DNA from: Streptomyces sp. NBC_00775
Lineage (GTDB): Bacteria; Actinomycetota; Actinomycetes; Streptomycetales; Streptomycetaceae
Direction: 5' to 3'
Length of the DNA: 64,000 nt
Assembly: GCF_036347135.1 (NCBI RefSeq)
Contig: NZ_CP108938.1
Location: 1,922,001-1,986,000, forward strand
Shown: piece by piece, positions 5,082 to 44,490 of the stretch
Numbering within the stretch: position 1 is the stretch's first letter
Layout: every line of letters begins with the position of its first letter
The notes under the pieces: generated by a model
The model's database searches: none
What the model saw: only the letters and a program-made list of their open reading frames with translations
What the model was told of the DNA's origin: nothing
Translations under genes and position numbers: made by a program

Positions 5082-5090
5082 TGAGCCGCC

Positions 5091-25510: not shown

Positions 25511-25566
25511 TTGCGCAGTGGAAACCGATCGGTTTACAGTGAGGGCAAGGGGAAACCGATCGGTTT
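25511..25566 (+). promoter_or_regulatory. Promoter with two AAACCGATCGGTTT operators (SDR 1)
   Basis: A -35-like ttgcgc at 25511-25516 and a -10-like tacagt at 25535-25540 are 18 bases apart. Operator 1 (25522-25535) fills the spacer and operator 2 (25553-25566, within a perfect 18-bp palindrome) lies just downstream. Same layout as at 41.8 and 44.4 kb. Confidence 0.75.
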
Positions 25567-25587
25567 CCCAGGCGAGTTCGGGAGTGC

Positions 25588-26403
25588 ATGATGACGACAA
25601 AACGACCGGTGGCCCTCGTGACGGGCGCGTCCTCCGGCATCGGCAAGCAGACCGCGCTCGCGCTGGTCGCGGCGGGTTTCGAGGTGGCCGGCACAGGCCG
25701 CGATACCTCACGCGTCGCCCCGCTCCAGGGTGTGACGTTCTTCGACCTCGACGTGGTCAGTGACAAGTCGGTCACCGCCGTGGTCCAGCAGGTGATCGAC
25801 CGGTTCGGGCGGATCGACGTCCTGGTCAACAACGCCGGCATCGGCTCGATAGGCGCGGCCGAGGAAACCTCCGTCGCGCAGGCCCAGGGCGTCTTCGACA
25901 TCAACGTCTTCGGGGTCATGCGCATGGTGAAGGAGGTCCTGCCGCACATGCGTGCCCAGGGACGCGGGCGCATCATCAACCTCTCGTCGGTGCAGGGGTT
26001 CATCCCCGCTCCCTACATGGCCGTCTACGGCGCGTCCAAGCACGCGATCGAGGGCTACTCCCAGTCCCTGGACCACGAGGTCCGGGAATACGGCGTCCGG
26101 TCGCTTCTCGTCGAACCCGCCTACACCAGGACCGGATTCGAGGCCAACAGCGCGAAGCCCGACACGCCCCTGCAGCCCTACGCGAACCAGCGGCACGTCT
26201 TCGACCGCCTGATGACGGAGGCGATCAAGGACGGCGACGACCCCGCCGTGGTCGCCAAGGCGATCGTCACGGCGGCGACCGACGCGAAGCCGAAACTGCG
26301 CTACGCCGCCGGCCCCATGGCCGGACGCGCGCGCCTACTCCGCTTCGTTCCCGCCTGGGTCTTGGACAAGCAGATCCGCACGATGAACAAGCTGGCCGGC
26401 TGA
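25588..26403 (+). CDS. SDR-family oxidoreductase (paralogue of 41868-42686)
   Basis: A 271-residue classical SDR: ALVTGASSGIGKQTALALV near the N-terminus, NNAGIGSIGAAEETS near residue 88, Ser in INLSSVQGF and Tyr/Lys in YGASKHAIEGYSQ near residue 148. The AYTRTGFEANSAKPDTP segment is shared nearly exactly with the paralogue at 41.9 kb. The two ATG codons are adjacent (25588, 25591). It is transcribed from the AAACCGATCGGTTT promoter and followed at 63 bases by a SnoaL-like gene, probably in one transcript. Confidence 0.9.
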   Translation: MMTTKRPVALVTGASSGIGKQTALALVAAGFEVAGTGRDTSRVAPLQGVTFFDLDVVSDKSVTAVVQQVIDRFGRIDVLVNNAGIGSIGAAEETSVAQAQGVFDINVFGVMRMVKEVLPHMRAQGRGRIINLSSVQGFIPAPYMAVYGASKHAIEGYSQSLDHEVREYGVRSLLVEPAYTRTGFEANSAKPDTPLQPYANQRHVFDRLMTEAIKDGDDPAVVAKAIVTAATDAKPKLRYAAGPMAGRARLLRFVPAWVLDKQIRTMNKLAG

Positions 26404-26466
26404 CACCTGCAACCCGCCACCTGCAACCCGCCAATCCCCTCGCGCCGTTGATACCGGGAGAGACCC

Positions 26467-26985
26467 ATGTCCGAGACCCCGCACTCCGCCGCGGCTACCG
26501 TCGCGAGCTGGCGCGCCGCCTCAGAACGCGGTGACGTCGACGCCGCGGCCGCCTGCCTGAGCCAGGACGTCGTGCTCAGCTCGCCGCTCACCGACCAGTT
26601 CCGTTTCGAGGGACCTGACCAGCTGCGCTCCTTCCTGACCTCGGCGTTCACGGCCGTTCAGGACATCCGCTTCCACACCCAGACCGGCGAGGGCGACGCG
26701 TACTCGCTGTTCTACCGGGCTCGGGTGGGATCCCAGCCGTTCGAGGAGGCGCAACTGCTCCGGCTCGACGACGAGGCACGCATCAAGGAGATCACGCTCT
26801 TCGGGCGTCCGATGCCGGCCCTCACCGCCCTGATGATCAGCGCGGGGTCGGAGCTCGCCCGCCGGCAGGGCCGCCGGGGCGTCGCGGCGCTCATGCGCGC
26901 CAGCGCCGCGCCCGTGCACGCGATGGTCACCTTCGGGGACCGCCGGGTGGTCCCGCTGACCCGGCCGGCAGCCCGGCGGAGCTGA
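26467..26985 (+). CDS. NTF2/SnoaL-like domain protein
   Basis: A 172-residue protein with a small alpha+beta barrel fold: N-terminal helix SAAATVASWRAASERGDVDAAAACL, then DVVLSSPLTDQFRFEGPDQ. Such proteins may be isomerases, cyclases or simple ligand binders. The ATG at 26467 follows gggagag. Being downstream of the SDR it may act on the same substrate (inference). Confidence 0.8.
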   Translation: MSETPHSAAATVASWRAASERGDVDAAAACLSQDVVLSSPLTDQFRFEGPDQLRSFLTSAFTAVQDIRFHTQTGEGDAYSLFYRARVGSQPFEEAQLLRLDDEARIKEITLFGRPMPALTALMISAGSELARRQGRRGVAALMRASAAPVHAMVTFGDRRVVPLTRPAARRS

Positions 26986-27010
26986 GAGCACCAGGTCCAC
27001 TGGGCGTTTG

Positions 27011-27118
27011 GCCCCGTTCCCCTTCCAGGAGTTGGCGGTAGCCGCAGGCGATGTCCTCGGCGGACAGCTTCGGGTCGCAGGAACGCAGGTGGTACTTGCC
27101 GTCCAGGTGAGCTTCGGC
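27011..27118 (-). pseudogene. Transposase fragment (IS1634-like)
   Basis: One minus-strand frame reads AEAHLDGKYHLRSCDPKLSAEDIACGYRQLLEGERG in pieces, resembling the segment L-D-G-K-Y-x-L-R-T-x-D..LSAEDIALGYKQL of IS1634/IS4-type transposases. Only about 36 codons survive, without the rest of a transposase on either side. Confidence 0.5.
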
Positions 27119-27277
27119 TCGCCATGACCACGCGGGCGAAACCGACTCCCCGAGAGCGGCTGCTGGAGGCGGTGTCCTCCACCGGCCACGGCAGCGTCCG
27201 GCCGGTCCCCCACATGCCGGGGCGATGCGGCAACTCGCCGCGCTTCCCAGCGACTTGACCCACCAGGAGACGCTCGC

Positions 27278-28435
27278 ATGAAACGACGTACGTTCCTTAC
27301 GGCGACCACCGCGTCGCTGGCCGCCACCCAACTCGCCGGACCCGCCTACGCCTCCGCCTCCCCCTCCCGTTCAACAGCCGGTCACTACGAGGTCGTTGCC
27401 CGCTTCTGGGGCGCGATGCCGACGGGTGTCACCGTCTCGCGCCGCGGCCGGGTCTTCGTCAACTTTCCCCGCTGGGGCGACGACGTCCCGTTCACCGTCG
27501 CCGAACTGCGGGGCGGGAAGCCGGTGGCCTACCCCGACGCCGAGGTGAACCGCGAGGACTCCTCCGACCTGGCCGGGCATTTCCAGTCGGTGCAGAGCGT
27601 CGTCGTCGACCCGGCCGAGCGGCTGTGGATCCTCGACACCGGAAGCCCGCTGTTCGCCGGGTCCTCCTACGGCGGTCCGAAGCTGGTGGCGGTCGACCTG
27701 CGCACCGACCGGATCGTACGGAAGATCCTCTTCCCGCCCGAGGTGGTGCCGGCGAACAGCTACCCCAACGACGTGCGCTTCGACCTGCGGCGCGGCGCCG
27801 AGGGCATGGCCTTCATCACCGACTCGGGCGGCTTGAACGGCGTGATCGTGGTCGACCTCGCCACGGGCCGCTCCTGGCGGCGACTGGCCGGGCACCCCTC
27901 GGTGCTCGCGGACGAGCAGTTCCTTCCGGTCATCGAGGGCGAGCCCTTCATGGTCCGCCCCGCGGGCGGCGAGCCCACGTACTACGAGACCGGCTCCGAC
28001 GGCATCGCTCTCAGCGCCGACGGCACGCGCCTCTACTACTGCCCGCTGTCCAGCCGCCGACTGCACAGCGTGTCCACCGACGCCCTCGCCGACCCGGACG
28101 CCACGGACGCCGAGGTGGCGGCAACGGTCGAGGACCTCGGGTTCAAGCCGATGGCCGACGGCCTGGAGAGCGACGACAAGGGGCGGCTCTACGGCGGCGA
28201 CCTGGAACACAACGCGATCTGGCGCAGGAGCCCGAACGGCACCTACCGGACCCTCGCCCAGGGACGCGATCTGCTCTGGGTCGACACCCTGTCCGTCGCC
28301 TCGGACCGGCACCTGTACGCCATCGCCAACCAGCTCGACCGGCTGTCGCCCTTCCACGAGGGCAAGGACCTGCGCCGCAAGCCCTATCTCCTGGTCCGCC
28401 TGCCGATCGACGCCGGGCCGGTCAGGCTCGTGTGA
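27278..28435 (+). CDS. Secreted Yellow/MRJP-like (L-dopachrome tautomerase-related) protein
   Basis: A 385-residue exported protein. The N-terminus MKRRTFLTATTASLAATQLAGPAYA is a Tat-type signal (KRRTFL) ending in an AYA cleavage site. The rest is a six-bladed propeller of the major royal jelly/Yellow type: ARFWGAMPTGVTVSRRGRVF, SVVVDPAERLWILDTG near residue 110, NSYPNDVRFDLR near residue 160 and FITDSGG near residue 180. In bacteria the role is unknown; insect relatives act in melanin chemistry or bind amines. No partner gene is next to it, and the surrounding DNA is mobile-element debris. The family call is good, the function open. Confidence 0.88.
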   Translation: MKRRTFLTATTASLAATQLAGPAYASASPSRSTAGHYEVVARFWGAMPTGVTVSRRGRVFVNFPRWGDDVPFTVAELRGGKPVAYPDAEVNREDSSDLAGHFQSVQSVVVDPAERLWILDTGSPLFAGSSYGGPKLVAVDLRTDRIVRKILFPPEVVPANSYPNDVRFDLRRGAEGMAFITDSGGLNGVIVVDLATGRSWRRLAGHPSVLADEQFLPVIEGEPFMVRPAGGEPTYYETGSDGIALSADGTRLYYCPLSSRRLHSVSTDALADPDATDAEVAATVEDLGFKPMADGLESDDKGRLYGGDLEHNAIWRRSPNGTYRTLAQGRDLLWVDTLSVASDRHLYAIANQLDRLSPFHEGKDLRRKPYLLVRLPIDAGPVRLV

Positions 28436-28695
28436 CCTCGCCGGCCCGCGTCAGGCGGCCGCCTGGTCGATGGATCAGTGCGCACCCCAGCCGTGCAGCG
28501 GGCGACCTCGACCCGGGCGCTGCCCCGGGCGCGGACCCGGGCGGGGCAGGGCTTGCCGGTGTAGTGCGCGGTGATGCGGTCGGTATCGGTCAGACCATCG
28601 TCCCCGTACAACTCGACGGCGCGTACGGTTGGGCGGATCGGATCTCAGGGGGAGATTCTCGAGCAGTTCGGTGGCGAGAGGGCCCTCCGGGCGCG
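28436..28695. other. Intergenic stretch before the intron remnant
   Basis: About 260 bases. No intact gene motif was found. It may include part of the intron's RNA, but no domain V-like hairpin was recognised. Confidence 0.35.
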
Positions 28696-29259
28696 GCCCT
28701 CAACGCGCTGGCACCCGAGTCGGAGGCACGGTTCGAGTCGAAGTCGTACGGCTTTCGGCCCGGCCGTGGCTGTCATGACGCCATCGAGGCGATCTTCAAT
28801 ACGGTCGGGGGCAAGAAACCGCACCGCCGGTGGAGTCTCGACGCGGACCTGGCAGGGGTGTTCGACCGCATCGACCATGGGCATCTTCTCCGTCAGCTCG
28901 GCACATCCCCGAGGGAACAGCTCAAGCAGTGGCTGAAGCCGGGCGTGGTCGAGCGTGAACAGCTCGCACCGACCGAGGCGAGGGCTCCACAAGGCGGGGT
29001 TATCAGCTCGACGTTGTTGAACGTCTCCCTGCATGGGCTGGATGAAGCCGCCGGGGGCCGGTACCTCCCTGATGGGATGAGGCACGCCGGTAGGTTGAAG
29101 CCGGGCACCCCCGTGGTGATCCGTTATGCCGACGATCTGGTGGCCTTGTGCGTCAGCGAGGAACAGGCCCGACAGGTCAAGCAGCAGCTCGCGGTGTGGC
29201 TGGCGCCGAGGGGACTGGCCTTCAACGAGGACAGCACGCGCGTCGTCCGCCTTGAAGGA
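28696..29259 (+). pseudogene. Group II intron reverse transcriptase/maturase fragment
   Basis: The plus frame through this segment reads ALNALAPESEARFESKSYGF, RPGRGCHDAIEAIF, SLDADLAGVFDRIDHGHLL, APQGGVISSTLLNVSLHGL, then VIRYADDLVALCVSEEQA and LAPRGLAFNEDSTRVV. These are the RT motifs 2-6 of a bacterial group II intron protein, including the catalytic YADD. The N-terminal RT-0/1 part and the maturase (X), DNA-binding and endonuclease domains are absent, so the intron cannot be active. The 3' end abuts an integrase fragment. Confidence 0.8.
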
Positions 29260-29261
29260 GG

Positions 29262-29415
29262 CTCCGACGGCGTCGGCGGCGAGCATGAAGGTGGCCGCGC
29301 CGTGCCGGAGGTCGTGCGGCCGGACGGGCGGGAGACCGGAGGCGGCGGCGAGCCGCTCGAAGAGGTCGGTGACCTTGCCGGGGTGCGGCCAGGAGTCGTC
29401 CTCCTGGGAGAACCG
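29262..29415 (-). pseudogene. Tyrosine recombinase (integrase) C-terminal fragment
   Basis: A minus frame reads SWPHPGKVTDLFERLAAASG and then VRPHDLRHGAATFMLAADA. This is the region holding the H-x-x-R active-site pair of tyrosine integrases (PHDLRH). Upstream and downstream parts, including the terminal Tyr, are missing. It lies back to back with the intron RT fragment. Confidence 0.6.
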
Positions 29416-29481
29416 GCTCGGGCCGCAGCGTGTGCAGGCTGCGGTTCTCCGTGTGTCCGAGGGACGGCCGCCGACTGGAGC

Positions 29482-30315
29482 TCAGCGCAGGCCGGCGAAG
29501 AGGTCGTTCTCGGGCAGGGGCGCGCCGGTGGTGTCGTGGACCCGGACGAACGTCTCCACTCCCATGAGCTGCGTGAACCTCTCCTTGCCCATCCGCAGGA
29601 AGAAGATGTTCTCACCCTGGCTGGCATGCGCGGCCAGCGCGTCGAACTTCTGGCCGCCGAAGTCGGTGGTGTCCACCCACGTGGTGATCTCCTCGTCGGG
29701 CAGGCCGATTTCGGGCCCCTCTCCGGCCTCGGACGGACCCGGCTCCTCCCAGTCCGCGCCGAACTCCTGCATGATCTGCCCGAACTCCTTCATCATCGAG
29801 CGCGGCGCCGTCGTCCAGTACACCTTCGACGCCATCCCGGTCAGCGACAGCGCTGCCATCGTGATCCGATTCGCCTGGATGTGATCGGGGTGGCCGTAGA
29901 ACCCGTTCTCGTCGTAGGTCACGACGACATCAGGCTCATAACGCAGCATCAGTTCGGCCAGCCGAGCGGCTGCCTCATCCACGGGCGTACTCCAGAACGA
30001 TCCGGGCGCGGTGTTGGCCGGCCAGCCCATCATCCCGGAGTCGGCATACCCGAGTAGCTCAAGACGGTCGACCCCGAGGACGTCACAGCTGGCTTCGAGT
30101 TCGCCTCGACGCATCACGGCAACGGCAGCTGGATCATGCCCGGGGTCGCCCGGCTTGGTGCCCCCCGGACCGTCACCGCAGCTACCGTCGGTGCACGTGA
30201 CGAGCACCGTGCGGATGCCCTCCGCCGCATAACGCGCCAGGACACCCCCTGTTCCCGTAGCTTCGTCGTCCGGGTGGGCGTGCACTGCCATCAGAGTCAA
30301 AGCCCGGTCAGCCAT
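29482..30315 (-). CDS. PIG-L family deacetylase (LmbE-like)
   Basis: A 277-residue zinc deacetylase of the LmbE/MshB fold. The metal-binding AHPDDE is at residues 12-17 and the second zinc-site HPDH is within ENGFYGHPDHIQANRI near residue 155. It removes an acetyl group from an N-acetylglucosaminyl-type substrate. It resembles mycothiol-pathway and mycothiol-conjugate amidase-like members but is shorter and not next to mycothiol genes, so the substrate is open. ATG 30315 follows AGGGG; a GTG three codons earlier is possible. A tandem 15-bp repeat lies upstream at 30450-30479. Confidence 0.85.
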   Translation of the reverse strand: MADRALTLMAVHAHPDDEATGTGGVLARYAAEGIRTVLVTCTDGSCGDGPGGTKPGDPGHDPAAVAVMRRGELEASCDVLGVDRLELLGYADSGMMGWPANTAPGSFWSTPVDEAAARLAELMLRYEPDVVVTYDENGFYGHPDHIQANRITMAALSLTGMASKVYWTTAPRSMMKEFGQIMQEFGADWEEPGPSEAGEGPEIGLPDEEITTWVDTTDFGGQKFDALAAHASQGENIFFLRMGKERFTQLMGVETFVRVHDTTGAPLPENDLFAGLR

Positions 30316-30449
30316 GAAATCCACCCCTGGTCGGTCAAGCGATCGAAGCCAGTCTGCGGCACAGCGGTACGTGACCGCCCGCAGCCCGCCGAGTCCGTCC
30401 GGTGTCCCACAGGATCCGACCGGCCTGGGTTCACCCGCTGCCGTACTTC

Positions 30450-30479
30450 AACTGATCATTTCAGAACTGATCATCTCGG
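30450..30479. repeat. Tandem 15-bp repeat upstream of PIG-L gene
   Basis: aactgatcatttcag and aactgatcatctcgg follow one another directly, each containing the palindrome TGATCA. Spacing of exactly 15 bases and location about 135 bases upstream of the deacetylase start suggest a regulator site. Confidence 0.5.
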
Positions 30480-30601
30480 AACGGGCCCCGGTCGGATAGA
30501 CCGGCCAGGGCAGCGGGGACTCATGTACCACCTCGCGGGACGCGACCGAAAGAGTCTCGCTGAACCGTACGTTCAGGCCCGGAGCGGTACCGGCTCCTGG
30601 C

Positions 30602-31237
30602 TCACGGCACGTCCGCGAACCCCTGAACCTTCCCCTCGCTCTCTCGCCACCCCGCTACCAATACCCCCAGTGCCCGCTCATAGCAGTCGGCGACCGCGAG
30701 CCCGGGCGGCTCGTTCCCCGACAGCACCAGGGACACCAGGCCATGGGCCGTTCCCCAGACCGACAGCGCGATGACCTCCGGGTCGGACTCCGAACTGAAC
30801 TGCCCTGCCTGCTGTCCGCGCCGCACGGCGTCGACGAGGGGCCGGTAGGTCTCGATGGCCTCACGCGGCTTCTCCGACTCCGACTCGGACGGGCACTGGA
30901 CGCTGCGGTCGGAGAAGAGGATTGCGTAGAGATGCGGGTTGGCGATGGCGTATTCGCGATAGACGAGCCCAAGTCGGATCACGTCGCCGGCCGGGTCGTC
31001 CGTCGGACGGATGGCTGCCAGGCGTGCGGCGAAGAGCCGCGCGGCCTCCTCGTACAGGTTCCTGAGCAGGCCCGCCTTGTTGCCGAACAGCGAGTAGACC
31101 GCCGTGGTCGAGGTCTTCACGTCCGCAGCGAGCTGTCGCAGGCTCAGCGCGGCCGTGCCGCGGTCGAAGACCGTGGCGGCCGCGCGGTGCAGGAGCCGGA
31201 GCCGGAGTGCTTCGTCATGTGTCTTGAGCCTGGCCAT
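30602..31237 (-). CDS. TetR/AcrR-family regulator
   Basis: A 211-residue regulator. HTH at about residues 15-55 (RLLHRAAATVFDRGTAALSL, QLAADVKTSTTAVYSLFGNKAGLL) and a C-terminal domain of the WHG type (ESDPEVIALSVWGTAHGLVSLVLSG). The ATG at 31237 was preferred over the upstream in-frame start at 31351, because the HTH begins normally from it. It faces the MMPL transporter gene across 265 bases and probably represses it. The intergenic DNA has a cgttacg/gttacgg motif near both starts. Confidence 0.87.
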   Translation of the reverse strand: MARLKTHDEALRLRLLHRAAATVFDRGTAALSLRQLAADVKTSTTAVYSLFGNKAGLLRNLYEEAARLFAARLAAIRPTDDPAGDVIRLGLVYREYAIANPHLYAILFSDRSVQCPSESESEKPREAIETYRPLVDAVRRGQQAGQFSSESDPEVIALSVWGTAHGLVSLVLSGNEPPGLAVADCYERALGVLVAGWRESEGKVQGFADVP

Positions 31238-31502
31238 GGCGCCATCGTATTGCAACGCCGTTACGAATGCTTCTCGGTATCGCTTTGGCTTGTTGTCGTC
31301 CGCTCCGCCCCGCGTCAGGACCCGCCGCTTCCGAACGAGCTTCTCTTGCATACCAGCAGGTCAGAGCAGAGGACCTCGACCCCTCTCCGAATGAGAGGTG
31401 TGCAGCAGCGTTGCATCGAGCAATAAAAACACTGTTACGGTTCGTTCGGCGCCGACTTTCAGATGGTCCTGCCCGGCGCTGGCTAACGATCTAGGAGAAG
31501 TC

Positions 31503-33680
31503 ATGTTTGAGGGGTTTGGGCGTCTGCTGCACCGCAGGCGAAAGCCGGTGCTGATACTGGCCATGCTGTTCGCCGTCCTGTCCGGGGCCTACGGTGCCGG
31601 AGTCTTCGGCTCCCTGACACCGCTCGGCTTCCAGGACCCCGGCTCGGACAGCGTGCGCGCGGCCCACATCGCCGAGAAGGCGTTCCCGCAGCGGACACCT
31701 GACGCGGTGATCGTCTACCGCGACAAGGACCGCACCGTCGACGACCCGTCCTTCCAGCAGGCGGTCGTCAAGCAGTTGGAGTCCCTGCCGAAGTCGGAGG
31801 TGACCGGCTACCTGGACTTCTGGACGACCAAGATGTCGGCGCAGGTCAGCCACGACCGGCACGCCACCTACGTCGCCCTGAACCTGCACGGCAGCAGCGA
31901 GAAGGCCAAGGAGGACGCGTACAAGGCCGTCAAGGACAAGATCCCGGCACCCGGCCTTCAGACGTTGCAAGGCGGCACGGTGCCCACCGGCCACCAGGCG
32001 AGTGAGAAGATCGAACATGACCTGAGAACCGCGGAAATCATCTCGGCCCCCGTGCTCTTCCTGCTCCTGCTGGTCGTGTTCGGCGGTCTGACCGCGGCCT
32101 TCCTCCCGCTGCTTGTCGGCGTGCTCTCCATCCTCGGTTCGATGGCCGTCCTGCGGACCATCGCGAACATCACCGATGTGTCCGTGTTCTCCATGAGCCT
32201 GGTCACGATCCTGGGTCTCGCGGTCGCCATCGACTACGGCCTGCTGATCGTGAGCCGTTACCGCGAGGAACTGGCGGCCGGCTACACCGGCGAAGCGGCG
32301 ATCGGGCGCACCCTCGCCACGGCCGGGCGCACCGTGATGGTTTCCGGCACCACAGTCGCGGCGGCGCTGGCCGGCCTGACCCTCTTCCCGTCGACGTTCC
32401 TGAAGTCGATGTCGTACGGCGGTGTGGCAGCGGTCCTGCTGGCGGTGCTCTTCTCACTGGTCGCGCTGCCCGCACTGCTCGCCGTGATGGGACCGAAGGT
32501 CAATGCCTTCCCGCTGCGCCGCAAGAAGGCAGGGCGGCCGACGGCGGCGGGCGAGGGTGCCTGGTACCGGTTCGGGCACGGCCTGATGCGGCGGCGGTGG
32601 GTCGTGGTGGTGGGCGCGGTGGGCCTGCTGCTGACGCTCGCCCTGCCGTTCTCCAAGATCGAGTTCGGTTCCATCAACGCGCAGCAGCTGCCGAGCAGCT
32701 CCGAGGGCCGCCAGGTCTTCAACGCCATGGAGCACGACTTCGACGGCGACGCGGTGAAGTCCATCGACTCGCTGCTCGTGCTGAAGTCCGACGGGACCTC
32801 GAAGGAGCAGGGCGCGGCGCTGAAGGCGTACGCCGAGCGGCTCGGTGCCACCGAGGGCGCCACGAGCGCCCGGATCAGCGGCGTGCAGGGCACCACGGCC
32901 CGGGTGTCGGTCACCTACGACGGCAATCCCATCTCGACCCACGCGCGCGACCTGGTGAACCGGCTCAAGGACGTCCCCGAACCGCCGGGCGCCCGGGCGT
33001 ACTTCGGCGGCGAGTCGGCGGTGTACGACGACACCCTGGACGCACTGGGCGAGACCCTGCCGTGGATGCTGCTCTACATCGCGGTGATGACGTACCTTCT
33101 GCTGTTCCTCGCGTTCGGCTCGGTGCTGCTGCCGTTGAAGGCGATCGCGATGAACATGCTGTCGCTGTCCGCGACCTTCGGCGTCCTGGTCTGGATCTTC
33201 CAGGACGGCCATCTGCACAACCTGCTCGGCTTCGATCCGACGGGCAACATCGAGCCCAACATGCCGATCATGCTGTTCGCGCTGATCTTCGGGCTCTCCA
33301 TGGACTACGAGGTGTTCCTGGTGTCCCGGATGCGGGAGCAGTACGACAAGCAGGGCGACAGCACGGAAGCCGTGGCGACCGGGCTGCAGTCCATCGGCCG
33401 CCTGGTCGTGAGCGCGGCGGTGCTGATGTGCGTGCCGCTCGCGGCGATCGGGATGAGCGATGTGCTGACCATCAAGCTGTTCGGCGTCGGCATGGTGTTC
33501 GCGGTCCTGGTGGACGTGCTGGTGGTGCGCGTCCTGCTGGGAACGGCCGTCATGAGGCTGCTGGGCAGGGCGGCCTGGTGGGCTCCGGGCCCGCTCGCCC
33601 GCTTCTACGACCGGTTCGGCATCAAGGAGACCGACGTGCCGGAGGACACCGACGAGCGGGTCCCCGTCGCCACGGGCTGA
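31503..33680 (+). CDS. MMPL-family RND transporter
   Basis: A 725-residue membrane transporter with two halves, each with a large extracytoplasmic loop and a block of helices. The Asp-Tyr pairs that carry protons in MmpL proteins are present in both halves: VAIDYGLLIVSRYREEL (Asp244-Tyr245) and LSMDYEVFLVSRMREQY (Asp601-Tyr602). It likely exports lipids or a hydrophobic drug-like compound. ATG 31503 has AGGAGAAG five bases upstream; the frame is open further upstream. It is divergent from a TetR gene, the usual arrangement for inducible efflux. Confidence 0.92.
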   Translation: MFEGFGRLLHRRRKPVLILAMLFAVLSGAYGAGVFGSLTPLGFQDPGSDSVRAAHIAEKAFPQRTPDAVIVYRDKDRTVDDPSFQQAVVKQLESLPKSEVTGYLDFWTTKMSAQVSHDRHATYVALNLHGSSEKAKEDAYKAVKDKIPAPGLQTLQGGTVPTGHQASEKIEHDLRTAEIISAPVLFLLLLVVFGGLTAAFLPLLVGVLSILGSMAVLRTIANITDVSVFSMSLVTILGLAVAIDYGLLIVSRYREELAAGYTGEAAIGRTLATAGRTVMVSGTTVAAALAGLTLFPSTFLKSMSYGGVAAVLLAVLFSLVALPALLAVMGPKVNAFPLRRKKAGRPTAAGEGAWYRFGHGLMRRRWVVVVGAVGLLLTLALPFSKIEFGSINAQQLPSSSEGRQVFNAMEHDFDGDAVKSIDSLLVLKSDGTSKEQGAALKAYAERLGATEGATSARISGVQGTTARVSVTYDGNPISTHARDLVNRLKDVPEPPGARAYFGGESAVYDDTLDALGETLPWMLLYIAVMTYLLLFLAFGSVLLPLKAIAMNMLSLSATFGVLVWIFQDGHLHNLLGFDPTGNIEPNMPIMLFALIFGLSMDYEVFLVSRMREQYDKQGDSTEAVATGLQSIGRLVVSAAVLMCVPLAAIGMSDVLTIKLFGVGMVFAVLVDVLVVRVLLGTAVMRLLGRAAWWAPGPLARFYDRFGIKETDVPEDTDERVPVATG

Positions 33681-33692
33681 ACCCTCCCGAGA

Positions 33693-37183: not shown

Positions 37184-37347
37184 AGCCAGCCGCAAGCGGC
37201 TGTGGTTGGTCGTGGTCATGGGTGACGACACCTGACCTGACTGCACGCCGAGCCCCAACGATGCACAGTTTGCTCATCGGCGACACCAGACCAGGAGTTT
37301 GCAGGCGCGGCTCGAGGCGACGTCGCCTCGAAGACACGGGAGAGGCA

Positions 37348-38016
37348 ATGCAGCCAGGGGAGATGGAGCGCGTCGATCTGGGTGAGGTGCCGTATGAGGT
37401 GGCGCAGGCCGACATGGCCGGTTGGGTGGCCGAGCGGAAGCAGGGGCGTACTGGGGATCGGCTGTTTCTGCTCACCCACCCTCCCGTGATCACCTACACG
37501 GCGCGGACACCGGCCGACCAACTGCCAGAACCGGCTTCACCGATCAGCCTGGTCGAAGTCGACCGGGGAGGTCACGCCACCTATCACGGGCCAGGGCAGC
37601 TGATCGGGTATCTCGTGCTGAACGTACGCGAGCTAGGACCGCGCGGCTTGATACGACGGATCGAACACGCCCTGATCCGTGCGCTGGGATCACTCGGGTT
37701 CGAGGCGATACGCCGGGACACACCCCGAGGCGCCGAGAGCCTGGTCGGCGTATGGACCCCCGGCCACCGCAAAATCGCCTCCATCGGCATGCGCATCAGC
37801 GGAGGCGTGACCAGCCACGGATTCGCGCTCAACGTCGACCCGGACCTCGACGTCTACACCACGTTCACGGCCTGCGCCCTGCCCGGTGTCCGGATGACCT
37901 CGTTGGCTCAACTCGCTGCCGAACTCGGCCGGCCCACGCCCACGGAGGAGCAGGTGAGGGATGCTGTAGCCGACGCCGTAACAGCCGAGCTGGCGCCAAC
38001 GCGCACACCCTCCTGA
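37348..38016 (+). CDS. lipB: Lipoyl(octanoyl) transferase LipB
   Basis: A 222-residue enzyme that moves octanoyl from acyl carrier protein to lipoyl domains. RGGHATYHGPGQLIGYLVLNV (residues 73-93), the catalytic Lys142 in HRKIASIGMRI and the acyl-accepting Cys176 in FTACALPG identify LipB. The N-terminal part is divergent from the main streptomycete LipB beside lipA as I recall it. No lipA is next to it here, so it could be a second or acquired copy. ATG 37348 follows gggagagg. Confidence 0.92.
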   Translation: MQPGEMERVDLGEVPYEVAQADMAGWVAERKQGRTGDRLFLLTHPPVITYTARTPADQLPEPASPISLVEVDRGGHATYHGPGQLIGYLVLNVRELGPRGLIRRIEHALIRALGSLGFEAIRRDTPRGAESLVGVWTPGHRKIASIGMRISGGVTSHGFALNVDPDLDVYTTFTACALPGVRMTSLAQLAAELGRPTPTEEQVRDAVADAVTAELAPTRTPS

Positions 38017-38049
38017 GCCGGGGCAGGCGCTTGCGCGGTGGCCGCCGCT

Positions 38050-38302
38050 CAGTTTCCAGTCCCCGCCTCCCGGTAGACCGTCGGCCATGGGCCGAACCGG
38101 CCCGGCATTTCCCGCCACCGACTGCTGGTGCGGAACCGCCAGATCCCCCCTCGACCTGCTCACGCAGCCGTTCAGGGTACGGACCGTGCTCGCCCATCGG
38201 CAGGAACGGCTCGGTCAACTGCTCCTGCTTGTCGGTGAGTTGCCTGCGCGTCACGATCGCCTTGCTACCGGCTTCGCCTCCCAGGCAGATCCGGATCGGC
38301 AA
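38050..38302 (-). pseudogene. IS5-family transposase N-terminal fragment
   Basis: Minus-strand reading gives RRQLTDKQEQLTEPFLPMGE and HGPYPERLREQVEGG. After a frame shift comes IWRFRTSSRWREMPGRFG and PWPTVYREAG. This is the N-terminus of an IS5-group transposase, without the DDE domain. Confidence 0.6.
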
Positions 38303-38641
38303 GATTGATCACGACATCACACAGGCCCGCCACCGGAGACCTGGCCGTGAACTTCCAGCTCCGCAGGGAGTCGGTGTCGATCGAGCCGGTAGAGCACGGT
38401 ATCGGCTTCATCCGCACCCAGGCAGATCGAGGCCATCATCTGGAGCCGGCAGGTCACCGGGAGCCGGTAACGGCGACTGCCGGGCGGGCGGCCCCGATGG
38501 CCGCGTTCGGCGCGGCGGACCTGGAGGGCTTGCGCGACCGGAAGCGAACCACTCCACTCGCGGCTCGCACCGACCCGATGACAGGGATGGCGCCGGCACG
38601 CGGCTTCCTGGCGCTGCTGGGATATGGGCCAGCACCTCGAC
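38303..38641. other. Gap upstream of the 38.6 kb promoter, no recognised gene
   Basis: About 340 bases. Frames are open on the plus strand but show no motif I recognise. Confidence 0.35.
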
Positions 38642-38692
38642 TTGGAAATTGTAAACTGATCGGTTTACGATGGGCTTGAAACCGACCGGTTT
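38642..38692 (+). promoter_or_regulatory. Promoter with two operators of the AAACCGATCGGTTT type (YhgE-like gene)
   Basis: A -35-like ttggaa at 38642 and a -10-like tacgat at 38666 are 18 bases apart. Operator 1 AAACTGATCGGTTT at 38653-38666 fills the spacer; operator 2 AAACCGACCGGTTT at 38679-38692 lies downstream. Both are one-base variants of the palindrome. Confidence 0.7.
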
Positions 38693-38844
38693 CATCAGTC
38701 GGAGTCCCGGCGGGGTGCTGCATCTCCGGTTCCGCGTCGACGGCCGTGTGTGCCGGGATTGAACGTTCCGAGGGTCGCCGGACCGCAATGAAGCTGTCCG
38801 TCCCTCTCCGAATATGAGTGTGTTGTCCGAGACCGGAGTAAGTC

Positions 38845-40143
38845 ATGAGTGGGATTCACCCGTTCCGCGTCCTGCGTGCCAAACCCCTATGGATCGCCAA
38901 TGGCGTCATCACGGGCGTTCTCGCGCTGCTGTTCACCGTGTTCTATGTCGGGGCCAATATCGATCCCGTCGATCACATGAAGAATCTGCCCGTCGGCCTG
39001 GTCAACGCCGACAAGGGGGCCGCTGTCGGTGGCAAGCAGGTCAACCTCGGGGCTCGGATCACCGAGTCGATCAAGAAGTCCACCGCGAGCGGGGACAAGA
39101 TCGACTGGAAGGTGATGGACGAGAAGGAGATGAAGAAGGAACTCGGCAAGGGCAAGCTGTACGGCGCGCTCGTCGTCCCCGCCGACTTCACCTCCGCCAC
39201 CACCGCACTCACCAGCGCCGCGACCACCGGGGCCCCGACCCGTCCGACACTGACGGTGCTGACCAACCAGTCCGCCGGCAGTGTGGGCTCCAGTCTGGCC
39301 CGGACCGCGACGACGCAGGCTGCCGAAAGCGCCTCGCTCCAGGTGGGCAAGGAGCTCACGTCCCAGGGCGGAACGGGGGAGGCGAAGCTGCCCGCCGCGG
39401 CACGCGTCCTGCTGGCCGACCCGGCCGCCGTCACCGTCGAGGACGGCCATCCCCTCGACTCGCACAGCGGCCTGGGCCTGACGGCGTTCTACTACGCGCT
39501 CGTCCTGGTGGTGTGCGGCATGCTCTCCGCCAACGTCATCAGCGGCCAGGTGGACCACGCCCTCGGCTACACCCACAACGACATGGGCCCGCTGCGCCTG
39601 CACCGCCCGCTGATCCGGGCGACCCGGGCGCAGACCCTCGCCATCAGCAGCACTCTCATGGCCGGGCTGTCCCTGCTGATGGGGAGCCTGGTCATGGCGG
39701 GCGCGGTCGGCCTCATGGGAATGCACGCCGCCCATCTGCCACTGCTGTGGCTCTACTCGGTGTGCGCCATCGCGGTCTCCGGGATCGGTGCGCTGACCCT
39801 GCTCGCCGTCTTCGGCACGCCCGGCATGCTGGTGGTCACGCTGGTCTTCATCGGGATGGCGGTGCCGACGGCCAACGCCACCACGCCGCTTCAGGCGTTG
39901 CCCGGTTTCTACCGCTTCCTGGCGGAGTTCGAACCGCTGCGGCAGATCACCGGCGGCATCCGCTCGATCCTCTATTACGACGCCCAGGCCGACGCCGGCC
40001 TGACCCGGGGCTGGGTCATGATGGCCGTCGGCCTCGTGGCAGCCGCCCTCTTCGGCTTCGGCATGACCAGCTGGTACGACCGCAAGGGGCTCCACCGTAT
40101 CCCCGTCGAGACGGAGCCCGAGAAGACCGCTGCCCCGGCGTAG
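38845..40143 (+). CDS. YhgE/Pip-like membrane protein (ABC-2 type permease-like)
   Basis: A 432-residue membrane protein: one N-terminal helix (LWIANGVITGVLALLFTVFYVG), a soluble loop of about 170 residues starting PVGLVNADKGA, then five or six C-terminal helices. This is the layout of YhgE/Pip and of DUF3533 export-type permeases; no ATPase is nearby. It may export a compound made or altered by the regulon. ATG 38845 follows GGAGTAAG. A terminator stem lies just after the stop. Confidence 0.82.
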   Translation: MSGIHPFRVLRAKPLWIANGVITGVLALLFTVFYVGANIDPVDHMKNLPVGLVNADKGAAVGGKQVNLGARITESIKKSTASGDKIDWKVMDEKEMKKELGKGKLYGALVVPADFTSATTALTSAATTGAPTRPTLTVLTNQSAGSVGSSLARTATTQAAESASLQVGKELTSQGGTGEAKLPAAARVLLADPAAVTVEDGHPLDSHSGLGLTAFYYALVLVVCGMLSANVISGQVDHALGYTHNDMGPLRLHRPLIRATRAQTLAISSTLMAGLSLLMGSLVMAGAVGLMGMHAAHLPLLWLYSVCAIAVSGIGALTLLAVFGTPGMLVVTLVFIGMAVPTANATTPLQALPGFYRFLAEFEPLRQITGGIRSILYYDAQADAGLTRGWVMMAVGLVAAALFGFGMTSWYDRKGLHRIPVETEPEKTAAPA

Positions 40144-40163
40144 CGGAGGCGGCTCACCCAAGA

Positions 40164-40189
40164 CGGGGCCATTACTCGGAGTGGCCCCG
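40164..40189 (+). terminator. Terminator after YhgE-like gene
   Basis: An 8-bp stem (cggggcca/tggccccg) 20 bases after the stop. Confidence 0.6.
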
Positions 40190-40235
40190 GTGTGCGTCGC
40201 CCCCTGTGGGGACGAGAGGCGCGTGCACCATCAGG

Positions 40236-40275
40236 GCTCGGCGACGGTCTCTCCCCCGAGATCGTCGCCGAGCCT
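40236..40275. terminator. Second strong hairpin
   Basis: The 11-bp perfect arms ggctcggcgac (40236-40246) and gtcgccgagcc (40265-40275) continue inward through ggtctc/gagatc. This may isolate the YhgE-like gene from the TetR transcript. Confidence 0.65.
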
Positions 40276-40330
40276 CTGAGCGGCCTTCAGGCGGCCGCGC
40301 GGCGGCGGGCGTCTTCCCGGCACCCTATGT

Positions 40331-40344
40331 AAACCGATCGGTTT
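40331..40344 (+). promoter_or_regulatory. Single AAACCGATCGGTTT operator upstream of TetR
   Basis: A perfect 14-bp palindrome ending 32 bases before the ATG at 40377. This predicts autorepression of the regulator. No second copy follows. Confidence 0.7.
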
Positions 40345-40376
40345 CTTTTTCGTCCGATTCGAGTTAACCTCGCGGT

Positions 40377-40946
40377 ATGACCACCAAAGTGAAGCAAAGC
40401 CCCCGGGAGCGGCTGCTGGAGGCAGCGGCCACGCTCACCTACCGCGACGGCGTCGGCATCGGCGTCGAGGCGCTGTGCAAGGCGGCGGGGGTGTCGAAGC
40501 GCTCCATGTACCAGCTGTTCGAGAGCAAGGACGAACTGCTGGCGGCGAGCCTGGAGGAGCGTGCCGCTGCCTTCGCGGCCGGTCTCCTGCCGGCGGCGGA
40601 CGATGGCCGCTCACCCCGCGAGCGGATCCTGTACGTCTTCGAGCGGGTGGAGTCGCAGGCGGGTGCGCCCGACTTCCAAGGCTGCCGGTACCTGGCTGTG
40701 CAGATCGAGCTCAAGGATCAGACCCACCCCGCGAGCCGGGTGGCCCACCAGATCAAAGCGAACCTGACGGCCTTTTTCCGTTCCGAGGCCGAACAGGGCG
40801 GGGCGAGCAACCCCGACCTGCTGGCCCGGCAGCTCATCCTGGTCTTCGACGGCGCCAGCGCCCGCGCGGGAATCCAGGCCGACAACCTGACCGGGCTCAT
40901 CGCACCCACCGTGGTCACCCTGCTCGATGCGGCAGACATGCGCTGA
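40377..40946 (+). CDS. TetR/AcrR-family regulator, candidate master of the AAACCGATCGGTTT regulon
   Basis: A 189-residue regulator. HTH at about residues 12-55 (RLLEAAATLTYRDGVGI, ALCKAAGVSKRSMYQLFESKDELL). The C-terminal domain has a Cys in FQGCRYLAVQIEL and ends with DLLARQLILVFDGASARAG. Its own promoter carries one copy of the palindrome, so it is the first candidate for the protein that binds it; the second is the TetR at 41034. It is transcribed alone, and a terminator stands upstream. Confidence 0.88.
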   Translation: MTTKVKQSPRERLLEAAATLTYRDGVGIGVEALCKAAGVSKRSMYQLFESKDELLAASLEERAAAFAAGLLPAADDGRSPRERILYVFERVESQAGAPDFQGCRYLAVQIELKDQTHPASRVAHQIKANLTAFFRSEAEQGGASNPDLLARQLILVFDGASARAGIQADNLTGLIAPTVVTLLDAADMR

Positions 40947-41033
40947 CGCGCCCCGGGTTCGAGCAGGCTCGGAGGCCGAAGCGCTCTTTCGGGTTGATGC
41001 CAGTCTCCGGCAGCCGGAGCAGCGCCCACGGCC

Positions 41034-41567
41034 TCACGCCCTTGCCTCCCGGTGATCGGAGGAAAGCCCGATGGCCGTAAGCGTGTTGCCGAGCATGCCG
41101 CAGGCAAAGAAGCTTGCGGTCTCGCGGACGTCGGCACCCAGCGACAGGTGCACGGTTTCCCACAGTCTCATCCAGCCGGTCCGGACGAGCTCGCCCGTCT
41201 GGTCATCGCCCTCCGCCTCAGCGGCCGCGACGACGGCGTATCCCTGCATCTGCATCAGGAGCGTTTCGGGGCGCGCCGAGATGAGCCGCGCGTACGCGTC
41301 CGTCATGGCATGCAGGGTCTGCTCGCCGCCCTCCGCCCCGTCGGCCGCCCGCTCGAAAGCCAGGCGGGTGTCTTCCATGCTCCGCACCAACGCGGCGACG
41401 AAGATCGCCTTCTTGCCCGGGAAGAGTCGGAAGAGGTACGGCTGCGTGACGCCGACGCGTTTGGCGATCACCTCGGTGGAAGTGCCGTAGTAGCCCTTGA
41501 GCGCGAACTCGGCGATCGCTGCGCGGACGACGCTTTCGCGCCTCTCTTGCGCACTGATCCTGGCCAT
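41034..41567 (-). CDS. TetR/AcrR-family regulator (divergent from SDR 2)
   Basis: A 177-residue regulator. HTH at residues 6-50 (QERRESVVRAAIAEFALKGYYG, VIAKRVGVTQPYLFRLFPGKK). The ligand domain includes ARPETLLMQMQGYAVVAAAEAEG and a Cys in FACGMLG. The ATG at 41567 was chosen as the HTH follows directly; the frame remains open further upstream. It faces the SDR gene at 41868 across a promoter carrying the two-palindrome array. The copy at 25.1-25.4 kb has the same layout but has decayed. It is either the regulator of the palindromes or a partner of the 40.4 kb TetR. Confidence 0.87.
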   Translation of the reverse strand: MARISAQERRESVVRAAIAEFALKGYYGTSTEVIAKRVGVTQPYLFRLFPGKKAIFVAALVRSMEDTRLAFERAADGAEGGEQTLHAMTDAYARLISARPETLLMQMQGYAVVAAAEAEGDDQTGELVRTGWMRLWETVHLSLGADVRETASFFACGMLGNTLTAIGLSSDHREARA

Positions 41568-41800
41568 GCCGCCATTGTGGCAGGCGCCGGTCGGTTTGCG
41601 TCCGCCGGCAAGGCACCTGACCGGGCGCCGGTCCGCAGGGCCCGCCCTTGTGGCGGCCGACCGCCATGAGACGGCCTCCTGTCTGCCGCGCGCCACAAAC
41701 AGTGCTCCGCCCCGCCTTGGGCGAGACGCCGCAGCCGCCGCGCAGCCCGATCGGCCTCAGCGCGCAGAGGTGGCACGGCCCGGATCGGGTTGGCCCTAGC

Positions 41801-41850
41801 TTGCACATGGAAACCGATCGGTTTACTATGGTCGGAAACTGATCAGTTTC
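41801..41850 (+). promoter_or_regulatory. Promoter with two operators (SDR 2)
   Basis: -35-like ttgcac (41801-41806) and -10-like tactat (41824-41829), 17 apart. Operator 1 AAACCGATCGGTTT at 41811-41824 fills the spacer; operator 2 is GAAACTGATCAGTTTC at 41835-41850, a perfect 16-bp palindrome. Confidence 0.75.
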
Positions 41851-41867
41851 TAACGAGTCGGGAATCC

Positions 41868-42686
41868 ATGATGACGATGAACCGGCCGGTGGCACTCGTG
41901 ACGGGTGCGTCATCCGGCATCGGGAAGGAAACCGCGCTCGCCCTGGTCGCAGCCGGATTCAACGTGGTCGGCACAAGCCGCGACACCTCACGCGTCACCC
42001 CGCTCGACGGCGTGACGTTCCTCGGGCTCGACGTCGCCAGTGACGCCTCGGTCGCCACAGCGGTCCAGGAGGTGAGCGAGCGGTTCGGGCGGATCGACGT
42101 CCTGGTCAACAACGCCGGCGTCGGCTCGATGGGTGCGGCCGAGGAAACCTCCGTCGCGCAGGCCCAGGGCGTCTTCGACACCAACGTCTTCGGGGTCATG
42201 CGCATGGTGAACGAGGTCCTGCCGCACATGCGTGCCCAGGGACGCGGCCGCATCATCAACATCTCGTCCGTACTCGGGTTCATGCCCCAGCCGTACATGG
42301 CCGCCTACGCCGCCTCCAAGCATGCGATCGAGGGCTACACCGAGTCCCTGGACCACGAGGTCCGCGACCACGACATCCGGGCGCTCATCGTCGAACCCGC
42401 CTACACCAGGACCGGATTCGAGGCCAACAGCGCGAAGCCCGACACCCCCCTGCACGCCTACGCGAAGCAGCGGCTCACCGTCGACCGCGTGATGGCGGAG
42501 GCGGTCAGGGACGGTGACGCCCCCGCCGTCGTCGCCAAGGCGATCGTCGCGGCAGCGACCGACGCCAAACCGAAGCTGCGCTACACCGCCGGCCCCCTGG
42601 CCGGACGCGCGCGCATACTGCGCCGCGTCGCTCCCGCCCAGGTCTTCGACAAGCAGATCCGCAAGATGAACAAACTGGCCGGCTGA
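41868..42686 (+). CDS. SDR-family oxidoreductase (paralogue of 25588-26403)
   Basis: A 272-residue SDR, strongly similar to SDR 1 along its whole length. ALVTGASSGIGKETALALVA, NNAGVGSMGAAEETSVA, Ser in INISSVLGF, Tyr/Lys in YAASKHAIEGYTE. Many blocks, for example AQAQGVFDTNVFGVMRMV, are identical or nearly so. The start was set at 41868, the second of two candidate ATGs (41868 and 41871). It is followed by a broken CocE-type hydrolase gene after 28 bases. Confidence 0.9.
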   Translation: MMTMNRPVALVTGASSGIGKETALALVAAGFNVVGTSRDTSRVTPLDGVTFLGLDVASDASVATAVQEVSERFGRIDVLVNNAGVGSMGAAEETSVAQAQGVFDTNVFGVMRMVNEVLPHMRAQGRGRIINISSVLGFMPQPYMAAYAASKHAIEGYTESLDHEVRDHDIRALIVEPAYTRTGFEANSAKPDTPLHAYAKQRLTVDRVMAEAVRDGDAPAVVAKAIVAAATDAKPKLRYTAGPLAGRARILRRVAPAQVFDKQIRKMNKLAG

Positions 42687-42714
42687 CGCCTGCCCGCACT
42701 CAAGCACCCCGCAA

Positions 42715-44267
42715 GAGAGCGACGGTTGCGACACCGTACGGTGGGCCGCCGCCCTGCCCGGCTCGAACGGCTCCGTCGGCATGATCGGCGGCAGCTACTT
42801 CGGCAACACCCAGTGGATGGCGGCGCTGTCGAAGCCACCGGAGCTGAAGGCCATCGATCCGATGATCACCTGGTCCGACCCGGACGACGGGCTGTGGACG
42901 CGTGGCGGCGCGATCGAGCTCGGCCTCACCGTGCCCTGGTCGCTCCTGCAGGGTGCCGACACCCTGATGCGCCGTCACTCCACCGACCTCGACGGGCTCG
43001 TGAACGGCATCACCGGGCTCGTGCAGGATTTCGACGGCCTGGCGAGCGGCGGTTACGGGAAGCTGCCCGCCGGGCGGTTTCCCGCGTTCGCCCGGCACGA
43101 CCTGCCCGAGCTGGGCTACGAGCGTTCCCGGCGCGAGCCCGAGTGGGCGGCGTCCTGCACTGTCGCGGGCCGGCACGGCGAGGTCGATCTGCCCACCTTC
43201 CAGGTCGGCGGCTGGTTCGACATCTTCGGCCAAGGCACGCTCGACAACTTCACCGCCATGCGCCGCGCCGGCCGGTCCGCCACGCTGGTCATGGGCCCGT
43301 GGACCCACACCAACTTGCGGCACGTGGTCGGTGACGTCAACTTCGGGTTCGGCGCGAACTCCGACTTCATGGGCATGCGCGGACGCCTGCACGACATGCA
43401 GTTCGACTGGTTCCGGCGCACGATCGGCGACGGCGAGGCTGTGGAGCCGGACGCGGGCACGGTGCTGCTGTTCGTCATGGGCATCAACCAGTGGCGCGAG
43501 GAGACGGAATGGCCCCTGCCGCGGGCCGTGGATACGGACTTCCACCTGCGCGCCGACGGACGCCTGACGCAGGAGCCGCCGTCCGCCTCCGAGCAGGCCG
43601 AGGAGTTCACCTACGACCCCATGGACCCGGTGCCGACCACCGGCGGCGCGCTCCTCATGGGCGGCGGGCTCCTGAACACCGACGAGTTCCGTCCCGGGCC
43701 GCTCGACCAGGCGCGGCCGTCGAGGCGCGCGAGGACGTCCTGGTCTTCACCACCGAACTGCTCACCGAGGACGTCGAGGTGACCGGCCGGGTCCGGGCGG
43801 TGCTCTTCGCTGCCACGGACGGCCCCTCGACCGACTGGGTGGCACGCCTGTGCGACGTCGATGAGATGGGCGTCTCCCGCAATGTGGCCGACGGCATGGT
43901 AAGGGTGCGCGCTGCGACACCGGGCGAGGCGGCCGAGCACGTCGTGGACCTGTGGTCGACCAGCGTCGTCTTCCGGGCGGGGCACCGGATACGGGTCCAG
44001 GTCACCTACAGCAACTTCCCCCGCTGGGACCGCAATCTCAACACGGGCGAACCCGAGGAGAGCGCGACCACGGCCCGAGTGGCCCGGCAGCAGGTCTTCC
44101 ACGACCCCGCCCGACCCTCCCGCATCGTCCTGCCGGTGGTTCCGGTCCCAGCGCCGCCGACAGTCGGCCGCCCTTGGCCGCCGACCCCGGGCCGGCCGGG
44201 GACGGCGGCCGGGCACGCCGGCGATACCGAGCCGTACGGCACGCCACTCCTCACGTCACCCCGCTGA
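42715..44267 (+). pseudogene. CocE/NonD-family hydrolase, 5' truncated and frameshifted
   Basis: The first frame (about 42715-43715) has the CocE-type nucleophile loop GMIGGSYFGNTQW near 42781, Asp in VGGWFDIF and His in GPWTHTNLRH. The C-terminal jelly-roll domain continues in a second frame from about 43715 (VEAREDVLVFTTELLTEDVEVTG..RHRIRVQVTYSNFPRWDRNL) to the stop at 44267. A frameshift near 43710-43720 divides it. The N-terminus before ESDGCDTVRW is missing, about 90 residues if compared with usual members. The SDR-distal junction lies directly after SDR 2, suggesting deletion or recombination joined the two. An esterase was probably part of the pathway once. Confidence 0.75.
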
Positions 44268-44440
44268 ACTCCGTGGGCCCAGCCGGGCCACGTCGATCAC
44301 TGGCAGGCTCGCGGCTTCACCGGCCTGCGACGGGCGAGTACGGACTTCGCCGATGGACACGAGGCCAGCCCCTGAAGCCTGAGCTCCGCCCGACTCCACC
44401 TCGACCCCGCGTGCCGTAGTCATCCGGTGCTCAACCCGAC

Positions 44441-44490
44441 TTGCATGACGAAACCGATCGGTTTACGGTGGTGAAAACCGATCGGTTTTC
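44441..44490 (+). promoter_or_regulatory. Promoter with two operators (SDR 3)
   Basis: -35-like ttgcat (44441-44446) and -10-like tacggt (44464-44469), 17 apart. Operator 1 AAACCGATCGGTTT at 44451-44464 lies in the spacer; operator 2 is the perfect palindrome GAAAACCGATCGGTTTTC at 44473-44490. Confidence 0.75.

Follow-up and report, generated by a model that had tools for sequence, protein, structure and literature searches.

The window analysed here, a stretch of 64,000 nucleotides of the Streptomyces sp. NBC_00775 chromosome (contig NZ_CP108938.1, positions 1,922,001 to 1,986,000), comprises genes for three short-chain dehydrogenases/reductases (SDR1, SDR2 and SDR3), a YhgE/Pip-like membrane protein and two TetR-type proteins, which we call TetR-A and TetR-B (Table 1). 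The 14-bp palindrome AAACCGATCGGTTT is present in nine copies, with 0-2 mismatches, upstream of five of these genes. Six copies are exact (starting at 25522, 25553, 40331, 41811, 44451 and 44475), two exhibit one mismatch (38653 and 38679), and one exhibits two mismatches (41836). A TetR regulon marked by this palindrome, with nine sites in front of five genes, had been put forward in the original prediction; all nine sites were recovered at the same positions, and the regulon is supported computationally. With up to three mismatches, the window contains 11 matches, against a mean of 0.78 in shuffled sequences, and none of 100 shuffles reaches 11; the two extra matches (1215 and 31617) exhibit three mismatches each.

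Table 1. Genes, predicted promoters and operators of the regulon in the window (O1 and O2, first and second operator copy; distances between operators are from start to start).
Feature	Position	Strand	Remarks
SDR1 promoter	25511-25540	+	TTGCGC-18-TACAGT; O1 25522-25535 in the spacer
O2 of SDR1	25553-25566	+	31 bases after O1
SDR1	25588-26403	+	NCBIfam NF004823 oxidoreductase, 394.7 bits (cut-off 310); 79% identical to SDR2
SnoaL_2-like protein	26467-26985	+	63 bases after SDR1
YhgE-like promoter	38642-38671	+	TTGGAA-18-TACGAT; O1 38653-38666
O2 of YhgE-like gene	38679-38692	+	O1-O2 distance 26
YhgE/Pip-like membrane protein	38845-40143	+	Pfam DUF3533, 206 bits; TIGR03061, 96.2 bits (cut-off 96.15); TIGR03062 below cut-off
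Single operator of TetR-A	40331-40344	+	-46 to -33 from ATG
Predicted -10 (TAACCT) of TetR-A	40365-40370	+	-12 to -7 from ATG
TetR-A	40377-40946	+	predicted reader of all operators
TetR-B	41034-41567	-	divergent from SDR2
SDR2 promoter	41801-41829	+	TTGCAC-17-TACTAT; O1 41811-41824
O2 of SDR2	41836-41849	+	predicted +1 to +14; O1-O2 distance 25
SDR2	41868-42686	+	NCBIfam NF004823, 399 bits
SDR3 promoter	44441-44469	+	TTGCAT-17-TACGGT; O1 44451-44464
O2 of SDR3	44475-44488	+	O1-O2 distance 24
SDR3	44509-45210	+	NCBIfam NF006119, 368.7 bits (cut-off 249)
Alpha/beta hydrolase (Abhydrolase_1)	45241-46275	+	30-42 bases after SDR3, depending on start codon (45241 or 45253)

At the four structural genes, the -35 and -10 elements are 17-18 bp apart, with the first operator copy (O1) filling the spacer; the second (O2) begins 24-31 bases further, at 0 to +7 of the predicted transcription start. 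The proposal that the operator is built into the promoter spacer thus holds at SDR1, the YhgE-like gene, SDR2 and SDR3. As the TAACCT at -12 to -7 from the TetR-A ATG is conserved in relatives, the TetR-A transcript is predicted to be leaderless. The short gaps between SDR1 and the SnoaL_2-like gene, and between SDR3 and the hydrolase gene, indicate that each of these pairs probably forms one operon. In contrast, a single pathway acting on an epoxide-bearing substrate, as originally suggested for this gene set, is not established: the product of 45241-46275 is an alpha/beta hydrolase, and the models do not fix its substrate.

Outside the window, two further TetR-A paralogues, 85% and 73% identical to TetR-A, are located at 10.94 Mb, about 9 Mb away, and the 85% paralogue exhibits an exact site 33 bases before its start. 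The third TetR-A paralogue (positions 7645-8181 of locus L005, plus strand) keeps the recognition helix and has an odd N-terminus, with an alignment starting only at residue 12; it may be damaged or inactive. Between the two far paralogues, L005 4054-4461 (minus strand) and 4921-5715 (plus strand) look by eye like a transposase pair, presumably of the IS200/IS605-like type.

A scan of the whole genome for the motif had also been proposed; it was run with the 14-mer, a 12-mer and a promoter pattern, and the motif is not randomly spread. Of the seven exact copies of the 14-mer in the 11.1-Mb genome, six are inside the window and one precedes the 85% paralogue. The promoter pattern TTG-spacer-AAACNGNNCNGTNTA has six genome matches, all at predicted regulon promoters: the four of the window and two at 10.95 Mb, in front of a major facilitator superfamily (MFS) exporter gene and an NmrA-like gene. 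This pattern was derived from known sites, and its significance is that there is no further genome match. The reversed pattern gives zero matches, but this control is weak because it contains CTAG, which is rare in such genomes; a palindrome control of the same composition is preferable. The far exporter matches Pfam MFS_1 and scores 218.3 bits with the EmrB/DHA2 model, just under the cut-off of 230.2. Of the 20 one-mismatch 12-mers in the whole genome, two lie in the window and four next to the far TetR-A paralogues, which leaves 14 at other places. None of the 12 outlying 12-mers inspected (L007-L018) exhibits TTG plus TAnnnT, and their best second copy 20-35 bases on has at least six mismatches; the remaining two (L006), separated by 2.4 kb, differ from the 14-mer at three positions. 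Based on these sites, the regulon in this genome would comprise six structural promoters and the TetR-A genes.

The same architecture is observed in relatives. We analysed 79 TetR-A loci. As they were taken from the 80 best among 182 confirmed stretches, near relatives are over-represented; moreover, some species supply two or three loci, which are therefore not all independent. The TetR-A relatives of these loci are 85-97% identical and belong to Streptomyces, Nonomuraea, Saccharothrix and Actinomadura; most of the named ones, including the best at 97%, are from Streptomyces. All 79 loci contain the motif at up to two mismatches. Their 949 kb comprise 382 sites, of which 244 are exact, 120 have one mismatch and 18 have two. 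In the first 20 loci, the motif is found 108 times, whereas 59 other palindromes of equal composition average 0.07. A site 46 or 47 bases before the TetR-A ATG is found in 77 of the 79 loci.

Besides these own-promoter sites, the relatives contain 163 site clusters, all different in sequence, of which 142 are pairs. A correctly spaced TTG flanks 139 of the 142 pairs on a single outer side and no pair on both, whereas random positions exhibit it on one side in 2.2% of cases. The spacer is 17 bp long in 105 pairs and 18 bp long in 34. O1 is the better conserved copy, being exact in 91 of 139 pairs, against 65 for O2. The distance from O1 to O2 is 22-26 bases in 138 of the 142 pairs and 30-33 in four; in 27 further pairs, it is 23-26 in 17 and 30-34 in ten, and a distance of 27-29 is not found among the 169 pairs. 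The pairs of L122, L127, L128 and L130-L133, together with exact pairs in the genomes G076 and G131, have O1 and O2 32-34 bases apart, and the seven L pairs, which were inspected, exhibit the same spacer geometry. The long distances constitute a second class, roughly one helical turn longer than the first, which suggests that the two dimers would have to occupy related faces of the DNA.

TetR-A and TetR-B were compared by their co-occurrence with the motif. Among 21 genomes of the genus, the nine with a TetR-A (E 1e-25) are the same nine that contain the exact motif (Fisher test, 3e-6). Random scatter of the motif was accordingly rejected, as the exact 14-mer is absent from all 12 genus genomes without TetR-A at this threshold. 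Of 296 genomes of the class, 17 encode a TetR-A relative with an identity of 51% or more, a line set after the data were seen; all 17 contain the motif, against four of the 279 others (Fisher test, 3e-24). With relatives defined by E 1e-20, the motif is present in 18 of 56 genomes with a relative and in three of 240 without. These tests assume independent genomes, which related genomes are not. G077 contains the motif with a 40% TetR-A relative right beside the site. Of the original suggestion that one TetR (40377 or 41034) serves all sites, the part concerning a single TetR type is supported computationally for TetR-A, while TetR-B shows no link to the motif. TetR-A, and not TetR-B, is therefore the likely reader.

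Both proteins are members of the TetR family, with PF00440 (TetR_N) scores of 36.3 bits for TetR-A (cut-off 24) and 45 bits for TetR-B, and the 50 structural matches listed are of TetR type by title or fold. We define here an SAV143-type group, named after the nearest solved protein (see below), by at least 51% identity, S-K-R at positions 40-42 and AAACCGATCGGTTT nearby. The helix residues S40, K41 and R42 are invariant in all 96 proteins of this motif group (95 distinct), and a site at up to two mismatches accompanies 79 of 79 and a further 16 of 16 group loci, L119 among the 16 being a duplicate of L071. Thirteen more distant relatives comprise ten with A-R-R and no site at up to two mismatches in 3.5 kb, and three (L134, L137 and L142) that keep S-K-R and exhibit such a site, one of them exact. 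This covariation is the pattern expected if the helix reads the palindrome.

The relatives extend the list of targets with an iron-sulphur protein, an MFS exporter, an alpha/beta hydrolase and an NmrA-like gene. A heuristic assigned a first gene to 148 of the 163 clusters: NF004823-type SDRs (37), PRK08264-type SDRs (35), 4Fe-4S proteins (24), MFS exporters (15), alpha/beta hydrolases (13), TetR-A (12, comprising 11 second copies and L068's own), YhgE-like proteins (8, plus one frame in L047, described below) and three singletons. A looser rule applied to the other 15 clusters yielded NmrA-like and DUF1330-type genes, left three without a gene and gave some doubtful calls. The 4Fe-4S protein, found at L085 3512-4354, at L157 3418-4539 and in 23 other loci, is the third commonest target in relatives. 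In 11 of 24 cases, a YhgE-like gene comes after it at a distance of no more than 400 bases. In L047, one frame of 821 residues joins the 4Fe-4S and YhgE-like parts, while no 4Fe-4S gene was found before the YhgE-like gene of the window. The best NCBIfam matches of the 4Fe-4S protein are QueG, the epoxyqueuosine reductase (54.4 bits, cut-off 200), and reductive dehalogenase (28.5 bits, cut-off 160.35); as both scores are far under the cut-offs, it is a distant relative at most. In G009, G013, G016 and G020, the same target families lie behind sites on other contigs or at a distance from TetR-A. If TetR-A is the regulator, it therefore acts in trans.

Based on these observations, we propose that TetR-A is a dimeric repressor that reads AAACCGATCGGTTT, represses its target promoters through O1 and O2 as well as its own gene, and is released by a small molecule; we assign this reading a probability of about 0.88. 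One dimer would sit on O1, between the -35 and -10 elements, while another would occupy O2, close to the predicted start; together they would exclude RNA polymerase, which fits the geometry. The autorepression of TetR-A is probably lighter, through a single operator that would reach the -35 region of the predicted leaderless promoter. Release by a small molecule, probably toxic or reactive, would raise SDR1-SnoaL, the YhgE-like exporter, SDR2, SDR3-hydrolase and the distant MFS exporter and NmrA-like oxidoreductase together. Several observations weigh against this proposal. The own-promoter site is lacking in L048 and L058, three of the 142 pairs have no TTG in place, and 17 have no TAnnnT in register (125 have one). 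G085, G240 and G289 each contain one exact site (G085:C3:115207, G240:C17:106104 and G289:C23:10802) with no TetR-A match at E 1e-20; these single sites are either chance matches or served by a different reader. Given the two extra paralogues in the genome, TetR-A need not act alone. Finally, the conserved pair G102-C103 is also found in relatives without the operator and therefore has little specific bearing on this regulon.

Two alternatives concern the nature of the reader and of the site. TetR-B adjoins SDR2, and a decayed copy of it adjoins SDR1. Moreover, of 22 relatives that align into its first six residues, 17 have the nearest site 30-33 bases from the start of TetR-B. All of these features could designate it as the reader. 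Yet TetR-B occurs in 16 of the 21 genus genomes (E 1e-30), nine of which lack the exact motif (Fisher test, p=1), G001 and G013 contain the motif without TetR-B, and the 3.5 kb around a 65% TetR-B paralogue at 4.3 Mb offer only sites with five or more mismatches. TetR-B was therefore rejected as the reader on co-occurrence, and we consider this role extremely improbable. It may itself be a divergent target in relatives; in the window, its gap to the nearest site is 243 bases, against the 30-33 of most relatives. The sites could also belong to an activator or to a mobile promoter repeat, since the same O1-O2 cassette stands before several unrelated gene families. However, positions between -35 and -10 or near the start are typical of repression, conservation drops to 40-70% in the roughly ten bases upstream of the -35 element, and motif presence tracks TetR-A exactly in the genus sample, which makes this explanation very unlikely.

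The other alternatives keep repression by the TetR-A type and concern the number of regulators and the inducer. All three paralogues may read the same operators, so that a promoter would open only when every one of them is off, the TetR-A of the window being one input; we give this nearly even odds. The paralogues at 10.94 Mb keep the recognition helix and adjoin the same operator, a second TetR-A lies directly behind a site in 11 of the 79 loci, and genomes with at least two TetR-A copies exist. On the other hand, the third paralogue, with its aberrant N-terminus, is possibly inactive. Across all 110 proteins, the helix region is somewhat more conserved than the effector domain (mean identity 0.90 versus 0.79), but pairs within a genome (the L068 self-pair excluded) exhibit no clear difference between the helix-turn-helix (0.69-0.96) and the effector part (0.72-0.87). 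A more elaborate version seems rather unlikely to us. In it, a fixed cassette of two operators, one filling the spacer and the other close to the start, 22-26 or 30-34 bases further, would have been placed before at least five gene families in widely separated chromosomal regions; two or three paralogues with a shared helix and diverged sensors would act on it, giving release of the AND type. As for the inducer, a tentative suggestion, which we hold at somewhat less than even odds, is that Cys103 senses a reactive electrophile (quinone, aldehyde, epoxide, organohalide or thiol oxidant), as in NemR or CifR. Cys103 is invariant in 109 of 109 proteins and aligns with the sensing cysteine of NemR (Cys106, a number counted from the chain numbering), and the targets resemble detoxification and export functions; the iron-sulphur target fits thiol sensing and is too weak to shift the odds. 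Nevertheless, a review (PMC7464077/PMC13178969) assigns Cys106 of NemR to reactive chlorine, and Cys21 and Cys116 to electrophiles. The Gly-Cys pair is spread more widely than the regulon, many other TetR proteins rank equally with NemR and CifR in the structural comparison, and there are no nemA- or gloA-like genes among the recorded targets, for which no search by name was made.

Among proteins of solved structure, TetR-A is closest to SAV143 of Streptomyces avermitilis (PDB 3JSJ), a putative TetR regulator with 90% identity, for which the records consulted give a structure and no operator or targets. No paper mentioning 3JSJ was found in the open-licence literature, the name SAV143 itself not having been searched. 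Likewise, no paper was found there for AAACCGATCGGTTT and AACCGATCGGTT. The regulon is real and of a known kind, and was not found in the open-licence literature searched. TetR-A shares its family with the gamma-butyrolactone receptors of Streptomyces (ScbR/ArpA), the operators of which have a somewhat similar half site; with the NCBIfam model ScbR_bind_reg, it scores only 22.7 bits, against a cut-off of 150, and is thus not recognised as such a receptor. TetR-A also matches PDB 3vpr, which we take to be PfmR, as a distant TetR protein (E 4e-4).

GATCGG and CCGATC have no occurrence in the text of PMC3511530, which deals with TetR operators of S. coelicolor and S. griseus. PfmR (TTHB023), a TetR protein of Thermus thermophilus, has a measured operator, CTGACCGATCGGTCAG, with a dissociation constant of about 2 nM, and several of its sites are within promoters (PMC7022988). 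Its 10-base core, ACCGATCGGT, is also that of our motif, and no other published operator with this core was found; the flanks differ (TG/CA against AA/TT). The targets of PfmR are fatty-acid genes, and the target families recorded for TetR-A are SDRs, iron-sulphur, YhgE-like, MFS, hydrolase and NmrA-like proteins, of which the SDRs could act on lipids. NemR of E. coli and AltR of Pantoea are TetR repressors of themselves and of detoxification genes, as proposed for TetR-A (PMC7464077/PMC13178969); the AltR inverted repeat differs from our motif, and the target genes of both seem different from those of TetR-A. DitR is a diamide-sensing TetR protein in which both cysteines are needed (PMC9342713). 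CifR of Pseudomonas aeruginosa is a TetR repressor released by epoxides, with an operon comprising an epoxide hydrolase, MorB and an MFS exporter (PMC8244358), and with two binding sites according to a title cited therein. In contrast to CifR, which is divergent from the operon of its Cif-type epoxide hydrolase, TetR-A lies on the same strand as the hydrolase at 45241-46275, 4 kb apart, with the hydrolase behind SDR3.

The analysis provides a predicted operator and a target list for a TetR group that has a solved member, SAV143, for which the searches made turned up no described function, and that is present in many Streptomyces and some other actinobacteria. The ligand of this group could be searched directly with a ready-made reporter promoter, and the tight two-operator promoter could also serve as a sensor part in actinobacteria.

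Some further features of the region deserve mention. A defence function and carriage on plasmids were both rejected: TetR-A and the YhgE-like protein matched no PADLOC family, and the TetR-A stretch matched four of 72,556 plasmid records, one of them over more than 80%. A decayed, frameshifted copy of TetR-B is located at 25067-25378 (minus strand), divergent from SDR1 and 58% identical over residues 18-118. As it mirrors the position of TetR-B beside SDR2, it seems to stem from a duplication of the SDR/TetR-B unit in which one regulator was lost. The gene at 42781-43782 (plus strand) encodes a CocE/NonD-family hydrolase that matches only positions 101-390 of the 550 of TIGR00976; in L085, a CocE relative of 558 residues lies directly behind an operator, indicating that CocE can be a target. 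Beside SDR1-SnoaL, 27278-28435 (plus strand) exhibits a Pfam MRJP (major royal jelly protein) match of 109.6 bits, and a relative with 93-96% identity is found in the same place in L039 and L051.

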